Positions 23,835-45,958 of a stretch of 64,000 nucleotides of DNA are shown here, piece after piece. Source of the DNA: Nakamurella flavida (GTDB lineage Bacteria; Actinomycetota; Actinomycetes; Mycobacteriales; Nakamurellaceae); NCBI RefSeq assembly GCF_030811475.1, contig NZ_JAUSQV010000001.1:1240001-1304000 (forward strand), read 5' to 3'. The notes beneath the pieces were generated by a model. That model did not search any database. It was given only the letters and a program-made list of their open reading frames with translations, and was not told where the DNA came from. The position numbers and the translations under genes are program-made. The first letter of the stretch is position 1, and each line of letters starts with the position of its first letter.

Positions 23835-24221
23835 CTACTGTCCGGGCTCGTCGAAGCGCTTGCGGAAGCGCTCCTCCATGCGGTTGGACAGGGTCGGGTT
23901 GGCGCTCGGACTGTCGGTGTGCTTGCCCGCCTTCGCGGCGGCGCGAGCACCGGGCTGTCCGAAGACGAACAACCCGACGGCGGCGACCATGGCGAGGAAT
24001 CCGAGGACACTCACCACGACACCGACGGCCAGCAGACTCTGAGTAGCAATGACACCGACAACGAGAGCGACAAGACCGACGAGGAACGCGATGCCGGCCA
24101 GGATCGGCCGACGCCTGCGGATACGGCCGACGTTCACACTCGTGGCGAACTTCGGGTCGTCCTGATACAGGGCGCGTTCTATTTCATCGAGCATGCGCTG
24201 CTCGTGCTCGGAGAGCGGCAT
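23835..24221 (-). CDS. DUF3040 small membrane protein
   Basis: The 128-residue product starts with MPLSEHEQRMLDEIERAL, the hallmark of DUF3040, followed by FATSV and two adjacent membrane segments (about 46-90), then a basic tail. DUF3040 genes commonly lie near the dcw cluster in actinobacteria; no biochemical role is established. ATG 24221 is chosen over the longer open frame because GGAGG lies 4 nt upstream and homology begins there. Confidence 0.9.
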   Translation of the reverse strand: MPLSEHEQRMLDEIERALYQDDPKFATSVNVGRIRRRRPILAGIAFLVGLVALVVGVIATQSLLAVGVVVSVLGFLAMVAAVGLFVFGQPGARAAAKAGKHTDSPSANPTLSNRMEERFRKRFDEPGQ

Positions 24222-24328
24222 GGGTCCTCCTCCGGCACCGGACCGACGCTGGTGGGTCAGGGAAACGGCCGCCGACGAGCGGCCTACGTCAAGGATACGA
24301 GCACTCGCCACGGACCGGTAGCAAACGC

Positions 24329-25792
24329 TCAAATCTCATCCTCCTGCGGTGCCCGGTCGGGATGGACCGAGGGACCGGTGGACGGAGCGTGGGGACCGCG
24401 GCGGCGCTTCACGGCCGGTCCGAGCAGCGTCGCCGGGCCGAGGGCCGCCGCCCCGAATCGGGCTCTGACCAGGTCCGTTGCCCCCTCCGCAGCCACCCTG
24501 TCCGGCGCCGCGCGCCGGGGCGGGGCCGGCGGGGCCGACCGTGGGTGCGCGGCTGGGTCCGGCATCGACCCGACCGCGGTGGACCGGGACGGTCGCGACC
24601 CGGACCCCCTCGGGGTGTCCGAGAACTCCTTCCGGGTGTCCGGACCGCCGTCGGACGGTGCGTCGTCGAACGCGAAGGCGAGCTGCTCGACGACCTGGTC
24701 GGCACGAACCAGACCCTCGAGCCGGACGCCCAGCAGTCGGATGCGTCGGCCGGCCAGGGGCACCCGGTCCAGCAGGGCCCGGGCGGTGTCGTAGACGGTG
24801 GGCGTGTGGTCGGTGGGCGTGGACAGGGTGAGCGACCGGCTGATCGTCGTGAAGTCGTCGAACCGGATCTTGAGGGCCACGGTGCGCCCCCGGATGCCGC
24901 CGGCCCGGGCCCGTCGCCCGGTGCGGTCGGCCAGCTGCAGCAGTTCCCGGTCCAGCACCACCCGGTCCCGGGTGTCCTGGGCGAAGGTGTTCTCGGCCCC
25001 CAGCGATGCCTCGCTGGACTCGGTGGTGACGACCCGGTCGTCGCGCCCCCAGGACAGGTCGTGCAACTTCGCGCCCACCGCCTCGCCGACGGTGCGGACG
25101 AGCAGGGCGCGGTCGGTGGTCGCCAGCGCGCCGATGGTGGATGCGCCGATGGCCTCTAGGGTCGCGGCGGTGGCCGGGCCGACCCCCCACAGCGCCCGGA
25201 TGGGCAGCGGGTGCAGCACGGACAACACCTCGGCGGGGGGCACGACGAGCAGCCCGTCCGGTTTGGCGAGGCCGGACGCGAGCTTGGCCATGAACTTGCT
25301 CGACGCGGCGCCGACGGTGGCCGGTAGGCCCAGCTCGGTGCGGATGCGGGTCCGCAGATGGGCGGCGACCGCCCCGGGCCGGCCGAGGGTGCGGGAGAGG
25401 CCGGAGACGTCCAGGAAGGCCTCGTCCACGGACACCGGTTCGACCAGCGGCGTGATGTCGCGGAAGAGAGCCATCACCGAGGCGGACGCCTCGGAGTAGG
25501 CGGTGTGGTCGGGCGGGACGATGAGGATGCCCGGGCACAACGCCTGCGCGGTCCCGGTGGGCATGGCCGACCGGACACCGTGTCGCCGGGCCTCGTACGT
25601 CGCGGACAGGACGACGCCGCGCCCGTCGCCGCCGGCCACCATCATCGGTCGGCCACGCAGCTCGGGACGACGACGGATCTCCACCATCGCGAAGAACGCG
25701 TCCATGTCGACGTGCAGCACCGTGCACCGGCTGTCGTCGACGGCCTGCAGGTCGGTGGTGACCAGTCGGGGGGTGCCCTGCCGGGCACTCAT
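24329..25792 (-). CDS. dinB: Y-family DNA polymerase IV
   Basis: DinB copies damaged DNA. The 487-residue product has the metal-binding residues D29 and D31 in HVDMDAFF, where F34 is the steric gate that excludes ribonucleotides, and D123/E124 in SVDEAF. The little finger ends near residue 385 with EQLAFAF, a plausible sliding-clamp peptide. A basic, Pro-rich tail of about 100 residues follows, making it longer than the usual 350-400. No LexA box is visible upstream, so it may not be SOS-inducible, unlike E. coli dinB. Confidence 0.93.
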   Translation of the reverse strand: MSARQGTPRLVTTDLQAVDDSRCTVLHVDMDAFFAMVEIRRRPELRGRPMMVAGGDGRGVVLSATYEARRHGVRSAMPTGTAQALCPGILIVPPDHTAYSEASASVMALFRDITPLVEPVSVDEAFLDVSGLSRTLGRPGAVAAHLRTRIRTELGLPATVGAASSKFMAKLASGLAKPDGLLVVPPAEVLSVLHPLPIRALWGVGPATAATLEAIGASTIGALATTDRALLVRTVGEAVGAKLHDLSWGRDDRVVTTESSEASLGAENTFAQDTRDRVVLDRELLQLADRTGRRARAGGIRGRTVALKIRFDDFTTISRSLTLSTPTDHTPTVYDTARALLDRVPLAGRRIRLLGVRLEGLVRADQVVEQLAFAFDDAPSDGGPDTRKEFSDTPRGSGSRPSRSTAVGSMPDPAAHPRSAPPAPPRRAAPDRVAAEGATDLVRARFGAAALGPATLLGPAVKRRRGPHAPSTGPSVHPDRAPQEDEI

Positions 25793-25913: not shown

Positions 25914-26660
25914 TCACGGGGACGGGGCGGGGTCCGGGTTCGACGGGACCGGCTTGCGAGCGAGGACGTGCAGGTCGCCGGCGATCCGACGCAGCGGTTC
26001 GTGCACCGCCAGTTCCTGCTCCAGAGCCGCGAGGTCCCCGTCCGACGCCTGCGTGGATCGCCCGCTCAGCAGGCCCGAGACGACCCCCAGGCCGGTGACC
26101 TGGTCCACCTCGAGGCCGGCTGCGGCGAGGTCGGCGGAGATGCCGGCGATGTCGAAGCGGCGTCGGAGCGGGTCCCGCGGCCCCCAGCGGCCGGCCGGGT
26201 CCGCCAGCATGGCGCGCGCCTCACCCGCGCGACCGGCCAGCGCCTGGCCGAGGACGGCGGACAGGAGGCCCGGCACGAGCAGGGACAACCGGCCGCCGGG
26301 CCGGAGCGCCGCAGCGAGGGACGACAGGGTGGAGGGCAGGTCGTCGACCTGCTCGAGCAGGTGATGGCAGACCACGAGATCGGCCTGACCCTGGGGGACG
26401 ACTCCGGCCAGCCGGTCGGCGTCGGCCTGGACGGCGTGCACCCGGTCCGCCACCCCGGCTTCGGCGGCCCGGCGGCGCAGGATCGCCAGGGCATCGATGG
26501 AACTGTCGACCACGGTGACCACGCAGCCCTGACGGGCCAGCGGGACGGCGCGTGTACCGCTGCCGCCTCCGACGTCGATCACCGTCGACCCGGGGGCGAC
26601 CAGGGCGGCCAGGGCGGCCTGGACCGGGTCGACGACCACGGCGCGGGCTCCGTCCTGCAT
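25914..26660 (-). CDS. SAM-dependent methyltransferase (class I, SmtA-like)
   Basis: The 248-residue product has the class I motif I IDVGGGSGTRA near residue 29, an acidic motif II (TVVDSS), and the post-motif region LVVCHHLLEQVDD. The substrate is not known; such genes are usual next to dinB and SAV_6107 in actinobacteria. ATG 26660 has AGGAGG 7 nt upstream; the frame is open to 26768 but without homology. It is divergent from the ParA-like gene. Confidence 0.85.
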   Translation of the reverse strand: MQDGARAVVVDPVQAALAALVAPGSTVIDVGGGSGTRAVPLARQGCVVTVVDSSIDALAILRRRAAEAGVADRVHAVQADADRLAGVVPQGQADLVVCHHLLEQVDDLPSTLSSLAAALRPGGRLSLLVPGLLSAVLGQALAGRAGEARAMLADPAGRWGPRDPLRRRFDIAGISADLAAAGLEVDQVTGLGVVSGLLSGRSTQASDGDLAALEQELAVHEPLRRIAGDLHVLARKPVPSNPDPAPSP

Positions 26661-26787
26661 GCGTGCTCCTCCTGGTGTGGCCGGCCGGCCGCGTGTCCAT
26701 CGAGTGGTGATGCGCGGGGTGGTGGGAAGCGTAGCGGCGGACACCGACACGGCCGCCCCGGCGGGCATTCGTGGCGATCGGTGACGG

Positions 26788-26800: not shown

Positions 26801-27646
26801 GTGTTGATCGCGAGCGTGCTGAGTCTCAAAGGTGGTGTCGGGAAGACCACGGTCACCCTCGGCCTCGCGTCAGCTGCCCAGCACCGCGGGGTGGACACCC
26901 TGCTGGTCGATCTCGACCCCCAGATGAACGCCACCACCACCGTGGACCCGGAGACCGCCGTCGGCGCCCTGGGCAGCGGGGTCGATCCGGCCGAGGACAC
27001 CGCCGACCGCCGTCCCCACGGATCCGCGACGATCGCCGAGGTGCTCGACGATCCCCGCCGCAAGGTGGTCGAGCGTGCCGTCCGACCGTCGGGCTGGGGT
27101 GACCACCTCCGCGTCCTGCCCGGGAGCGAACGCGTCGAGGCCCACAACCACCCCGATCCCGGATCGAAGCACCTGGCCCGGTTGGCCCTCGCGCTGTCCC
27201 GCGTCGATCCGGCCCCCGAGCTCGTCCTGATCGACTGCCCACCGTCGCTCGGTCAGCTGACCCGGAGCGCCCTGGTGGCCGCCGACCGCGCTGTCCTGGT
27301 CACCGAGCCGTCCCTGTTCGCGGTGACCGGGGTCCAGCGCGCCCTGGAGGCCGTCCAGCAGGAACGCACCAGGGGTGATCTGCGACTGCAGCCCCTGGGC
27401 GTGGTCATCAACCGGTTCCGGCCCCGGGTGTCCGAGCACGAGTACCGACTGCAGGAGCTGCGGGACCTGTTCGGGCCCCTGGTCCTCTCCCCCGTGCTCG
27501 CCGACCGCTCGGCCGTCCAGCAGGCCCAGGGCGCGGCGGTGCCGATCCACTCCTGGCCGACGGCCGGCGCACGGGAGATCGCCCACGACTTCGACGCCCT
27601 CCTGGACCGCCTGCTCCGGGCGGGGAAGATCAGACGCCGCGGCTGA
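26801..27646 (+). CDS. ParA/MinD-family ATPase
   Basis: The 281-residue product opens with VLSLKGGVGKTTVTLGLA, a deviant Walker A with the ParA signature lysine (K10) and K15. LLVDLDPQMN (Walker A') and LVLIDCPPS (Walker B) follow. It is an orphan ParA: no parB or parS-like gene lies beside it, so a role in protein or plasmid-like positioning rather than oriC segregation is more likely. GTG 26801 is chosen because of the leaderless promoter just upstream; GTG at 26771 or 26792 would add up to 10 residues. Confidence 0.88.
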   Translation: MLIASVLSLKGGVGKTTVTLGLASAAQHRGVDTLLVDLDPQMNATTTVDPETAVGALGSGVDPAEDTADRRPHGSATIAEVLDDPRRKVVERAVRPSGWGDHLRVLPGSERVEAHNHPDPGSKHLARLALALSRVDPAPELVLIDCPPSLGQLTRSALVAADRAVLVTEPSLFAVTGVQRALEAVQQERTRGDLRLQPLGVVINRFRPRVSEHEYRLQELRDLFGPLVLSPVLADRSAVQQAQGAAVPIHSWPTAGAREIAHDFDALLDRLLRAGKIRRRG

Positions 27647-27710: not shown

Positions 27711-28697
27711 TCAGGCTCTCTGCACGGCGCTCTCCGCCAGCTCGAGGAACACCGCCACCTGCCGGATCATGTCGTCGGCCTCCCGGGCCGAGATGGTCGT
27801 CGCCAGGCCGGCTTCCGCCGCCTGCCGTTTCCCGGAGCCGGCCGCGAAGAACGCCGCCCACTCGGCGAGATCCGGGGCCACCCTCGTCATCAGCTCCCAT
27901 GCGCTGCCACGCCGCCCCCGGACCGGGCGGGCCCGAGCCGCCAGCACCGCAGCGGCCGCCCGGAGCGCAGCCAGATGGGCGATCGCGTAACGATCGGCCG
28001 GTGCCCGCTCCCCGATCGCCCGGCCCAACCCCCGTCCGGCATCGGCCAGCAGATCGCGGACGGCCTGCGACATCGGAGCCTCCTCGGCAGAGCCGCCCGG
28101 CCCCGGACGCCGACCGGCGGCCGCTGCGCCGGATCGCGGTCGCGACCCGGTGGAACGTGCGACCGGCGCGCCGCCACCGGATCGCCGCCCCGCGGACGGT
28201 CCGTCTCCGGACGCACGGTCGGCCGAACCGTCCGCATCTGCCGACCGCCGTCCCACCGACCGCCGTCCCACCGGGGGCCGGACCTCGGACGGACCCTCGG
28301 CGGGTCCACCGTCCGTCGTCACCCGGCCGACGGACGCGACATCGGGGACCAGGGACAGCGTGGTCGCTCCCGGCTGCGACCGCCGCCGCGGCCCCGGGGT
28401 GGTCAGACCGGGCCCCGCACCGAAGGGCGGAGCCGACACGGACCGCACCGTGGGTTCGGCCGGACCTCGCGCGGGCACCGGACCCGCGCCGCGCCCCTGC
28501 TCGCCGCCGGCGGCGACAGCGACCGGAAGGGCGGGGACATTCACCGGACGGGCGGGGACGTCCACCGGACGGGCCGGGACGGCGGAGGAGACCGGGAACA
28601 GCGCCGGCCGTGCGCCCCGCCCGACCCCACCGTCCGGTGACGGGAGGGCAGCGCGGGACCACCCGGTCAGCGCCGGGAACAGCGTGGTGGGTGTCAT
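27711..28697 (-). CDS. SAV_6107-family HEPN domain protein
   Basis: The last 120 residues match the actinobacterial SAV_6107 HEPN family (stretches RYAIAHLAALRAAAAVLAAR, SAWELMTRVAPDLAEWA and EADDMIRQVAVFLELAE). HEPN domains are often RNases or nucleotidyltransferase partners, but no RxxxxH motif is clear. About 208 residues of Pro/Arg/Gly/Ser-rich sequence precede the domain. ATG 28697 overlaps the stop of a small upstream gene (ATGA) and has GAGGA upstream. ATG 28073, with a strong GAGGAGG 5 nt before it, sits exactly at the domain boundary and may give a second, 120-residue product. Confidence 0.72.
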   Translation of the reverse strand: MTPTTLFPALTGWSRAALPSPDGGVGRGARPALFPVSSAVPARPVDVPARPVNVPALPVAVAAGGEQGRGAGPVPARGPAEPTVRSVSAPPFGAGPGLTTPGPRRRSQPGATTLSLVPDVASVGRVTTDGGPAEGPSEVRPPVGRRSVGRRSADADGSADRASGDGPSAGRRSGGGAPVARSTGSRPRSGAAAAGRRPGPGGSAEEAPMSQAVRDLLADAGRGLGRAIGERAPADRYAIAHLAALRAAAAVLAARARPVRGRRGSAWELMTRVAPDLAEWAAFFAAGSGKRQAAEAGLATTISAREADDMIRQVAVFLELAESAVQRA

Positions 28698-28918
28698 GAC
28701 TGCTCCTCGGTCGGCGTCGGGCGCCGGTGGACATGTGGTCGGGCGGGGGCGCCACAGGCGCGGACGGCGGTCCGGGGACCGGCCGGGAAACGCCCGGCCG
28801 ACGGACGACAGGCAGCGCGACGGCCAGCCACGGGGCACGGCCCGGCGCGGTGGGACACGGGGGCGGCACCCGACCGGTACGGACGGACCGGTGGATCGGG
28901 GACGGTCTCACGTGCCAC
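28694..28918 (-). CDS. Small Arg/Pro-rich protein, first gene of a probable SOS unit
   Basis: A 74-codon frame starts with GTG 28918 behind a perfect AAGGAGG with 6-nt spacing, and its stop overlaps the HEPN gene start as ATGA. Third positions are mostly G/C. The product is basic and rich in Pro, Arg and Ala with five cysteines and no recognised family. A perfect LexA box lies 76 bp upstream. The ribosome site and coupling are the main evidence that it is translated; it could act mainly as a leader peptide. Confidence 0.5.
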   Translation of the reverse strand: MARETVPDPPVRPYRSGAAPVSHRAGPCPVAGRRAACRPSAGRFPAGPRTAVRACGAPARPHVHRRPTPTEEQS

Positions 28919-28993
28919 GGTCGGCCTCCTTCTGTCCCGGGACGGCCCGCCACCCGATGTGCGACCGGGATCGTCCCTGCTGGTGTCGTTCGT

Positions 28994-29009
28994 TCGAACT
29001 CATGTTCGA
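28994..29009 (-). promoter_or_regulatory. LexA (SOS) box upstream of the small ORF-HEPN unit
   Basis: TCGAACTCATGTTCGA is a perfect mycobacterial-type SOS box (TCGAAC-N4-GTTCGA). On the minus strand a -10-like TACACT (29014-29009) abuts it, so bound LexA would cover the start site. The unit at 28918-27711 is the nearest downstream target. The GNAT gene on the other side begins 250 bp away. Confidence 0.8.
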
Positions 29010-29258
29010 GTGTACCTCTGTAGTCTGACAGAGGCCCGGCAGCGGCCCGGCAGCGGCCCGCGGGGCACCCTGCTGTGCGGCACCCGTTCGCCGTGGTCTC
29101 ATGGCGACTGTGAACGACCGCTCGTCCCGGCCGACCCGCGGACTTCCCCGGATCCTGCCGGGGACCACCGACAGTCCTGCCTCGTCGACCACTCCCCTGC
29201 GGACCCGCGCGGTGCGATCCGCCGGTGTCCCGACCACGGCCGATCCGGGCGGCGTCCG

Positions 29259-29903
29259 GTGAGCGATCCGGAGACGCTGACCGTCCTCCGACTGCCCCCG
29301 GCGGCTTTCCGGGCCCGCCTGGACGAACTCGTCGATGTGTACGTCGCCGCCATGCGGTATCCGGGCGGCGTGGGCCAGGGACGGATCACCCTGTGGGAGG
29401 AACACAGCCGGCGTGCCCATTTCGACTGTGTCGTCGCGGTCGACGGGAACGACGCGATCCGGGGGTTGGCCTACGGCTACCAGGGCCTGCCGGGTCAGTG
29501 GTGGTTCGCCGAGGTGCAGCGCGGCGCCCGGATCCGGGGCGGGGACGTCGAACGGTGGCTCACCGACTTCTTCGAACTCACCGAGTTGCACGTCCGTCCC
29601 GACACGCAGGGTTCCGGCCTGGGCGAGATCCTGCTGCGGCGGCTGCTCGACGGCCGCACCGAACGGGACGTGCTGCTCTCCACCCCCGAGGGCGAGAACC
29701 GGGCCTGGCGGCTGTACCGCCGGCTCGGCTTCCAGGACGTGCTGCGCGATTACCGGTTCACCGGCGACGCGCGGCCCTTCGGGGTGCTCGGTCGCCCTCT
29801 CCCGCTCGACGGGTCGAGCGGGGCGAGCGGGGCGAGCGGGGCGAGCGGGGCGAGCGGGGCGAGCGGGGCGAGCGGGGCGAACCCCGAACAGGATCCGGCC
29901 TAG
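29259..29903 (+). CDS. GNAT-family N-acetyltransferase
   Basis: The 214-residue product has the acetyl-CoA-binding motif A in LTELHVRPDTQGSGLGEILL (consensus R/Q-x-x-G-x-G/A) and motif B around NRAWRLYRRLGF. The acceptor is unknown. GTG 29259 is taken as the start because the acetyltransferase domain begins 10 residues later. The C-terminal tail is a run of eight Gly-Ala-Ser-like triplets encoded by a 9-bp minisatellite. The stop TAG shares CTAG with the stop of the convergent DUF885 gene. Confidence 0.82.
   Translation: MSDPETLTVLRLPPAAFRARLDELVDVYVAAMRYPGGVGQGRITLWEEHSRRAHFDCVVAVDGNDAIRGLAYGYQGLPGQWWFAEVQRGARIRGGDVERWLTDFFELTELHVRPDTQGSGLGEILLRRLLDGRTERDVLLSTPEGENRAWRLYRRLGFQDVLRDYRFTGDARPFGVLGRPLPLDGSSGASGASGASGASGASGASGANPEQDPA
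29811..29882 (+). repeat. 9-bp coding minisatellite (Gly-Ala-Ser)n
   Basis: Eight tandem 9-bp units: one GGGTCGAGC, six identical GGGGCGAGC and one GGGGCGAAC. They encode GSS, six GAS and GAN at the end of the GNAT protein. The identical copies suggest recent slippage; as the unit is a multiple of three, copy changes keep the frame. Confidence 0.95.
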
Positions 29904-38916: not shown

Positions 38917-39546
38917 TCAGGCCACGCCGGCCGGCCGGAACTGCACGCTGACCCGCGGACCGACCGGCCGCGTCGTCTTGGGGATCGCGTGGTCCCAGGT
39001 GCGCTGGCAGGAGCCGCCCATCACCACCAGATCGCCGTGCCCCTGCGCGAAACGCCGGGCAGGTCCGCCGTTCCGCGGCCGCAGGTGCAGTACGCGGTCC
39101 GACCCCACCGAGACGATGGCGACCATGGTGTCGGCCGCGGCACCGCGCCCGATCCGGTCGCCGTGCCAGGCGACGCTGTCGGAGCCGTCGCGGTACAGGC
39201 AGAGCCCCGCCGTGACGAACGGCTCCCCCAACTCGCGGGCGTAGTGGGCGGACAACAGCTCGCGCGCGTCGTCGAGCACCGGATGCGGCAGCTCGTCCTG
39301 GGGGCCGTACCAGGCCAACATCCGCGGGACCGCGACCTCCCGGTCGTACATCTGCCGACGCTCGGCGCGCCAGGGCACCGCCGTCATCAAGTGGTCGAGC
39401 ACTGCGTCAGATCCCGTCAACCAGCCGGGGAGAACGTCGACCCACGCTCCGTCCGTCAACGGGAGGCGCCGGATCCGACCCGCGGGCGGGGTCACCTCCG
39501 GGAGGAGATCCAGGTCGAACATCGAGGGTTGCGCCGCGATCTGCAT
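38917..39546 (-). CDS. alkB: Alpha-ketoglutarate-dependent DNA dealkylase
   Basis: AlkB oxidatively removes methyl groups from 1-meA and 3-meC in DNA using Fe(II) and 2-oxoglutarate. The 209-residue product has the iron ligands H128 and D130 in WHGD and H186 in DHAIPK, and the 2-oxoglutarate arginines in RVSVQFRP (R198, R204). The GDLVVMGGSCQRTW strand is typical. A perfect LexA box lies 21 bp upstream, and TAGCCT ends 6 nt before the ATG, so this is an SOS-regulated leaderless gene. Confidence 0.92.
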   Translation of the reverse strand: MQIAAQPSMFDLDLLPEVTPPAGRIRRLPLTDGAWVDVLPGWLTGSDAVLDHLMTAVPWRAERRQMYDREVAVPRMLAWYGPQDELPHPVLDDARELLSAHYARELGEPFVTAGLCLYRDGSDSVAWHGDRIGRGAAADTMVAIVSVGSDRVLHLRPRNGGPARRFAQGHGDLVVMGGSCQRTWDHAIPKTTRPVGPRVSVQFRPAGVA

Positions 39547-39552
39547 GGGCCG

Positions 39553-39582
39553 AGGCTAGCCCATCCTCGAACACCTGTTCGA
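39553..39582 (-). promoter_or_regulatory. alkB promoter with LexA (SOS) box
   Basis: TCGAACACCTGTTCGA (39567-39582) is a perfect SOS box. On the minus strand it is followed 8 bp later by the -10-like TAGCCT (39558-39553) and, after 6 nt, by ATG 39546. LexA bound here would sit between -35 and -10 positions and block transcription. Confidence 0.8.
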
Positions 39583-45001: not shown

Positions 45002-45017
45002 TCGAACGCACGTTCTA
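45002..45017 (-). promoter_or_regulatory. LexA box proximal to the LysM gene
   Basis: TCGAACGCACGTTCTA matches the SOS consensus except for one base in the right arm. It is the nearer of two boxes to the LysM gene in the 302-bp divergent region. Confidence 0.7.
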
Positions 45018-45080: not shown

Positions 45081-45111
45081 TCGAACGCTTGTATGAATCG
45101 TGACCTAGGCT
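45081..45111 (+). promoter_or_regulatory. lexA promoter with a degenerate LexA box
   Basis: TCGAACGCTTGTATGA (45081-45096) has a perfect left arm and two changes in the right arm. It overlaps the expected -35 position of a promoter whose -10-like hexamer is TAGGCT (45106-45111), about 75 bp upstream of lexA. This fits weak autoregulation. Confidence 0.6.
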
Positions 45112-45184: not shown

Positions 45185-45958
45185 GTGGCAACGCAACGCC
45201 CACCCACCGGATCGGCCCCGGACACCCGACCCGACCAGGCGACCGACTCCCCCACCGGGACCGGCGCACCCACCCCGGGCACCGACGCCACCGTGGTCGA
45301 GTTCCCGGAGGTCCCGGCCGCACCCGGGGTGCTCACCATGCGCCAGCGCAAGGTGCTGCAGGTGATCCGGGAATCGGTGGCCGAGCGGGGTTACCCGCCG
45401 AGCGTCCGCGAGATCGGCGAGGCCGTCGGCCTGAAGTCGCCGTCCTCGGTGGCCCACCAGCTCAAGGTCCTCGAGCGTCGGGGGCTGTTGCGCAAGGACC
45501 CGAACCGCCCCCGGGCCGTGGACATCCGACCGTCCGACGAGACGTTCGACGACGGCACGACGGACACGGGTCCCACGATGCCCACCCCGGCCTTCGTCCC
45601 GCTGGTCGGGCGGATCGCCGCCGGCGGCCCGATCCTCGCGGAACAGCATGTCGAGGACGTCTTCCCCCTCCCCCGCGAGCTCGTCGGCGAGGGCACCCTG
45701 TTCCTGCTCCGCGTGGTGGGCGACTCGATGATCGACGCGGCCATCACCGACGGCGACTGGGTGGTGGTCCGTCAGCAGCCGGTGGCGGAGAACGGCGACA
45801 TCGTGGCCGCGATGATCGACGGCGAGGCGACGGTCAAGACCTACCGCCGCAAGGACGGCCACATCTGGCTCATGCCGCACAACGCCGCCTACGAGCCCAT
45901 CCCCGGTGACGAGGCCGTGATCCTCGGCCGTGTGGTCACCGTGCTCCGCAAGATCTGA
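45185..45958 (+). CDS. lexA: SOS repressor LexA
   Basis: LexA represses DNA-damage genes and cleaves itself when RecA filaments form. The 257-residue product has an extra disordered N-terminus of about 48 residues, a winged helix-turn-helix ([20 protein letters not shown]), the cleavage site A146-G147 in RIAAGGP, and the S181/K218 dyad ([14 protein letters not shown]). GTG 45185 has GGGAGG 8 nt upstream. Targets recognisable in the window are itself, the LysM gene, alkB, the HEPN unit and probably recA. Confidence 0.96.

Follow-up and report, generated by a model that had tools for sequence, protein, structure and literature searches.

In this study, we report that a HEPN gene of the SAV_6107 family, located in a 64,000-nucleotide stretch of the Nakamurella flavida genome (assembly GCF_030811475.1, contig NZ_JAUSQV010000001.1, positions 1,240,001 to 1,304,000; hereafter the window), is preceded by a promoter composed of a PafBC-like element and an overlapping LexA operator, and that this promoter, as judged from its sequence, is kept across many actinobacterial families. 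The evidence for regulation of the DNA-damage type is strong. The conserved gene, predicted to be switched on by DNA damage, often lies beside genes for error-prone polymerases, suggesting an overlooked helper of damage-induced mutagenesis.

Promoter of the HEPN gene and its conservation

The original prediction, made from the letters of the window alone, described a perfect LexA (SOS) box overlapping a TACACT hexamer. This was confirmed, the box having 0 mismatches and sharing its first T with TACACT on the minus strand (Table 1). Perfect boxes (TCGAACNNNNGTTCGA) occurred 6 times in the 4.32 Mb genome and the reversed control pattern 0 times. Of the others among the six, one precedes imuB-dnaE2 (box 868041), one precedes alkB (window position 39567) and one precedes a radical S-adenosylmethionine (SAM) gene (box 1059120), and the box type is validated by its presence at known damage genes of the same genome. 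The radical-SAM protein presumably resembles Rv2578c. Two more perfect boxes were found in the same genome at positions 872179 and 959935 of contig C1. The window box at 39567-39582 stands about 20 bp ahead of an AlkB-like (2-oxoglutarate-Fe(II) oxygenase) gene at 38917-39546.

TACACT also forms the end of a PafBC/RecA-NDp-like promoter. Compared with the consensus tTGTCRgtg-N8-TannnT, whose capital letters follow the passages available from the literature source, 3 of 13 fixed positions differ, all of them lower-case, and every capital position matches. Shuffling gave P = 0.00015 for three or fewer mismatches at the fixed phase of the window. The same phase with three or fewer mismatches was found at 8 of the 16 genus loci, several genus mates and many relatives showing 0-1, and the GTCRGAC variant present in the window also occurs in Kitasatospora and other loci.

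Across 109 loci, the best-matching box in the 1.1 kb preceding HEPN had 0, 1, 2, 3 and 4 mismatches in 70, 15, 3, 6 and 15 cases, respectively, whereas among 1221 background windows drawn from these loci 0 mismatches were seen in 1 and 1 mismatch in 8; boxes with 0-1 mismatch were thus present at 85/109 loci versus 9/1221 windows. Loci L087 (no HEPN match) and L155 (<500 bp upstream) were left out of this count, and the named relatives' loci are the best 80 of 553 rather than a random sample. The names Mycobacterium (g7), Corynebacterium (g264) and Streptomyces (g33) for groups of relatives are our inference. In a separate set, whose genomes overlap with the other, the box was present at 48 of the 49 loci with usable upstream sequence, L049 (no match) and L033 (69 bp upstream) having been set aside. 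The box stays although its distance to the HEPN domain ranges from tens to about 1000 bp. A further 44 Mycobacteriaceae-like loci had 0, 1, 2, 3 and 4 mismatches in 4, 13, 23, 1 and 3 cases, the two-mismatch boxes being weaker evidence, since chance gives them in about one in ten windows. The claim of a LexA-controlled HEPN gene within a damage-response unit is sustained by the box being strongly kept near SAV_6107 homologues; the small reading frame predicted together with it is not kept there.

The PafBC element was found, with no more than 1 mismatch, just upstream at 17/88 boxed loci versus 8/25644 background windows, and at 27 of the 44 Mycobacteriaceae-like loci, 14 of them exact. In Streptomyces and Kitasatospora the SOS box before HEPN is degenerate or gone, and TTGTCRGTG precedes HEPN at 21/26 loci (24 with the GAC variant included) versus 0/406 background windows. 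Three Streptomyces-like genomes (G249, G083 and G184) contain 52, 44 and 70 exact copies of TTGTCRGTGN8YANNNT, respectively, versus 1, 2 and 2 of the reversed pattern. According to the passages available from a 2022 paper (PMC9380542), an initial search found the PafBC motif not conserved in S. venezuelae; contrary to that statement, our counts indicate an abundance of promoters of the PafBC type in Streptomyces.

The HEPN protein and its gene neighbourhood

The predicted protein consists of a long low-complexity N-terminal linker followed by a C-terminal HEPN domain (approximately 27735-28019). The family assignment made in the original prediction holds, as the frame 27711-28838(-) matched PF18726 (HEPN_SAV_6107) with E 1.5e-31 and 109.2 bits, above the curated cut-off of 27.2; the HEPN fold was recovered in the window protein, with a structure model covering its last 120 aa. 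PF18726 was carried by 54/61 relatives (window genome included) and 26/29 genera, and by 30/31 genera of the Mycobacteriaceae-like family, g7 (inferred Mycobacterium) lacking it. Distant members of the phylum (L107-L115) gave weak PF18726-like matches that scored close to the cut-off or under it, and some of these contained stop codons. An internal start in the same frame makes a separate HEPN-only product possible on sequence grounds, and genus mate L039, whose linker is similarly long, has an ATG preceded by a Shine-Dalgarno sequence at the same place.

Around HEPN, an array recurs in various subsets of the order DUF6504 - HEPN - (imuA' - imuB -) dnaE2 - methyltransferase - dinB - DUF3040. 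It was seen in 30 loci of 20 kb and the 80 named loci, and 101 loci with enough sequence were counted. Eight loci with <2.5 kb downstream were removed from this count, as was L129, which is from the same genome as L068 (both are included in the 109 above). Next after HEPN came dnaE2 at 18 loci and imuA'-imuB-dnaE2 at 5, making mutasome genes the neighbour at 23/101, with -30 to 62 bp between the HEPN stop and the dnaE2 match. Methyltransferase-dinB followed at 9 loci, dinB at 3, methyltransferase with no dinB seen at 14, and ParA without dinB at 5. At 11/101 loci, the window among them, a convergent ParA gene comes before methyltransferase/dinB; it holds the same position in Nakamurella and Pseudonocardia loci. 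Because vertical descent links the loci, the cases counted cannot be taken as independent; even so, which polymerase is adjacent to HEPN varies by lineage.

In several families (e.g. L002-L020) the SOS unit is opened by DUF6504 (PF20114), a small beta-rich protein located between box and HEPN and confirmed by Pfam in four proteins. A small partner regulated together with HEPN is thus a notion that holds for relatives, through DUF6504, and not for the 74-codon open reading frame (ORF) of the window.

Clamp-like motifs were found in the flexible ends of the HEPN proteins. QxxLP occurred in 25/181 N-terminal linkers (shuffle mean 2.0, maximum 6 in 300) and in 18/185 C-terminal tails (shuffle mean 1.7, maximum 7). 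Its forms include QPALPM with repeats in Amycolatopsis, QLPLP in Geodermatophilaceae-like loci, QPVLPQ in Streptomyces, QQPLPL in Kitasatospora, QDGLPL in Catenulispora, QQVLPL in Kineosporia and QG[SR]LPL in two Nakamurella. In the Amycolatopsis loci L148, L152, L153, L157, L182 and L197, Q-x-x-L-P-[MIL] is present up to six times in the N-terminal linker. In the literature passages available, the clamp motif of mycobacterial ImuB is QLPLWG, and actinobacterial DnaE2 carries QLPLx(L).

The features of the window are listed in Table 1. Tandem GAGCGGGGC repeats were also observed at 29813-29880, near the 3' end of the divergent GNAT gene.

Table 1. Features of the window discussed in this study
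Feature	Position	Strand	Remarks
HEPN gene	27711-28697	-	ATG at 28697; 328 aa; Shine-Dalgarno gaggag before ATG
Possible HEPN-only product	27711-28073	-	in-frame internal ATG at 28073, preceded by GGAGG
LexA/SOS box TCGAACTCATGTTCGA	28994-29009	- (HEPN direction)	palindromic; TCGAACNNNNGTTCGA with 0 mismatches
PafBC/RecA-NDp-like promoter CTGTCAGAC-N8-TACACT	29009-29031	-	final T is first base of SOS box
74-codon ORF	28694-28918	-	GTG start; GGAGG ahead; probably not a gene
ParA-like ATPase gene	26801-27646	+	convergent; between HEPN and methyltransferase-dinB block; not considered part of the unit
SAM-dependent methyltransferase gene	25914-26768	-	second in relatives' HEPN-methyltransferase-dinB-DUF3040 block
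dinB (DNA polymerase IV)	24329-25792	-	clamp motif QLAFAF
DUF3040 (SCO2097-family) gene	23835-24332	-	last in block; position is that of the earliest start in the frame
lexA repressor gene	45185-45958	+	boxes 45002-45017 (1 mismatch) and 45081-45096 (2 mismatches)

Alternative readings of the locus

The 74-codon ORF, its Shine-Dalgarno sequence and its ATGA coupling are present as originally described, the stop lying within the ATGA that also contains the HEPN start codon, but its standing as a gene is no better than chance. G+C at codon positions 1, 2 and 3 was flat (0.81, 0.77 and 0.75), and its codon score of -0.39 equalled that of stretches open in a wrong frame (median -0.41, n = 354; 95% point 0.200) and fell short of the 5% point among true genes (0.265, n = 142). 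Such tests discriminate poorly in this genome, since the true HEPN domain itself scores a modest 0.18 and its linker 0.00. No match was found in Pfam, NCBIfam or PADLOC, and the 4 matches obtained in 16 genus mates were weak (E 8e-4 to 0.008) and all lay away from the HEPN locus. The overlap is mechanical, as any start codon followed by A gives TGA one base on; ORFs ending in the HEPN start codon were found at 4 of 16 genus loci, window included (74, 47, 23 and 16 codons), with unrelated sequences. These results indicate that the ORF is probably not a gene, and the small basic partner of HEPN once proposed here is unlikely; a conserved coding small partner of the kind expected in a toxin-antitoxin pair was not found in this ORF. 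The good Shine-Dalgarno sequence, the overlap and the unusual length of the leader, which measures 296 bp from box to HEPN start versus 13-141 bp in 15 genus mates, would fit a true small SOS protein confined to this species or a leader peptide translated ahead of HEPN. Against the flat G+C, the off-frame codon score and a locus without homologues, we consider this most improbable, and the difference in length argues that leader and linker have been expanded in the window genome.

The suggestion that DNA damage releases a HEPN-type stress or defence RNase or toxin arose from the frequency of RNases among HEPN proteins, and it was not supported by inspection of the expected active site. No histidine is conserved 5-7 residues after R83 in an alignment of 50 sequences, residue 88 being A/S and residue 89 G in 45/50, and the RX4-6H motif is absent before the last helix, with no conserved His at 88-90, a site mapped by inferred fold position. 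RX4-6H follows the conserved Trp in just 9/50; an RX4H string near helix 2 occurs in 37/50, away from the expected site, and 12/50 have another residue instead of its His. In the part available of a HEPN survey table, the SAV_6107 row reads 'No' where adjacent rows state motif conservation. The alignment shows that the HEPN-fold protein of the window lacks the RNase histidine, and the protein is apparently inactive as an RNase. No MNT or antitoxin gene lies beside HEPN, and the vertical, core-gene distribution described above is unlike that of mobile toxins; we therefore hold an RNase or toxin to be very unlikely. It is more improbable still that the target of the box is the GNAT gene on the other side (29259-29903), with HEPN just happening to lie close by: the box does sit between divergent genes, but the PafBC element is oriented toward HEPN, the box persists at loci L060, L074, L079 and L083, where the upstream neighbour is transcribed toward HEPN, and at many loci the order is box, then DUF6504-HEPN. 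A damage-induced regulator of a non-polymerase process such as cell division is unlikely, though less so, since several families carry the gene close to mraZ/dcw. The order HEPN-DUF3040-mraZ was seen in 12 small g264 genomes (DUF3040 in 12, mraZ in 11), and NCBIfam labels DUF3040 a morphological protein family; on the other side, the dnaE2/imuA'-imuB array comes with the same box and DUF6504, and the known SOS-response division blockers belong to other families.

Proposed role and comparison with known systems

Following DNA damage, LexA would be cleaved and PafBC would activate, and the HEPN protein would then be produced alongside translesion polymerases. It may act at the sliding clamp as a non-catalytic adaptor, helping error-prone polymerases (DnaE2/ImuB or DinB) to be placed there or exchanged; the likeliest partner in Nakamurella would be the neighbouring DinB or the separately SOS-controlled ImuB-DnaE2. 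The 74-codon ORF would have no role as a protein. This reading draws on the tight array with dnaE2, imuA'-imuB-dnaE2 or dinB in relatives and on the ImuB-like QxxLP/QLPLP motifs of several lineages, and we regard the chances that HEPN is such an adaptor as evenly balanced. Several observations weigh against it. Neighbourhood is no proof of function; at 36/101 loci HEPN is flanked by no gene of the tested set, and the 14 noted above have the methyltransferase alone. In the window genome a convergent gene parts HEPN from methyltransferase-dinB, and imuB-dnaE2 lies at another locus, in a separate SOS operon that does not include HEPN. A canonical clamp motif is absent from the window protein and from most of its relatives, and the shuffle test overstates the significance of QxxLP because related sequences are not independent. 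Moreover, g7, taken to be Mycobacterium, lacks HEPN and the mycobacterial ImuA'-ImuB-DnaE2 works, so a mutasome of this kind can do without HEPN.

More tentatively, and in our judgement doubtful, the SOS mutasome of actinobacteria could include SAV_6107 HEPN as a so far overlooked subunit or loader tethered to the clamp, and DUF6504 as a further new component. If so, HEPN would have been missed because Mycobacterium, the usual model genus, has lost it. DnaE2-driven damage-induced mutagenesis is linked to the evolution of drug resistance; HEPN_SAV_6107 and DUF6504 are two uncharacterised families sharing the mutasome promoter type and often its operon. In the open-licence papers searched, no link of HEPN with dnaE2, imuB or LexA was found, SAV_6107 was mentioned in a single paper and DUF6504 never.

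SOS control of one probable family member is already in print. C. glutamicum was the sole carrier of PF18726 among 14 control genomes, and its cg2381, a 'conserved hypothetical protein', is probably the HEPN orthologue on the evidence of gene order rather than sequence: it lies near mraZ (cg2378), and in small Mycobacteriaceae-like genomes HEPN stands two genes ahead of mraZ. The passages available report cg2381 as ciprofloxacin-induced (log2 3.86) and within a 48-gene LexA regulon, and draw no HEPN or polymerase link. Compared with the HEPN superfamily (MNT-HEPN toxins, DUF86, AbiV, Csm6), the window protein differs in lacking the RX4-6H RNase motif and in being encoded by a damage-regulated chromosomal core gene. 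The passages available on ImuA'-ImuB-DnaE2 operons name neither HEPN nor DUF6504. The likeness to that mutasome lies in SOS control, in a predicted shared operon at 5/101 loci with dnaE2 next at 18 more, and in the clamp-like motif that a minority of HEPN proteins have in common with ImuB; the difference is that HEPN is without a polymerase-like fold. Genes under dual PafBC/LexA control, such as recA, are described for mycobacteria in the passages available and resemble HEPN in being preceded by both an SOS box and a RecA-NDp-type element, whereas at HEPN these two overlap or lie directly side by side within a single promoter.
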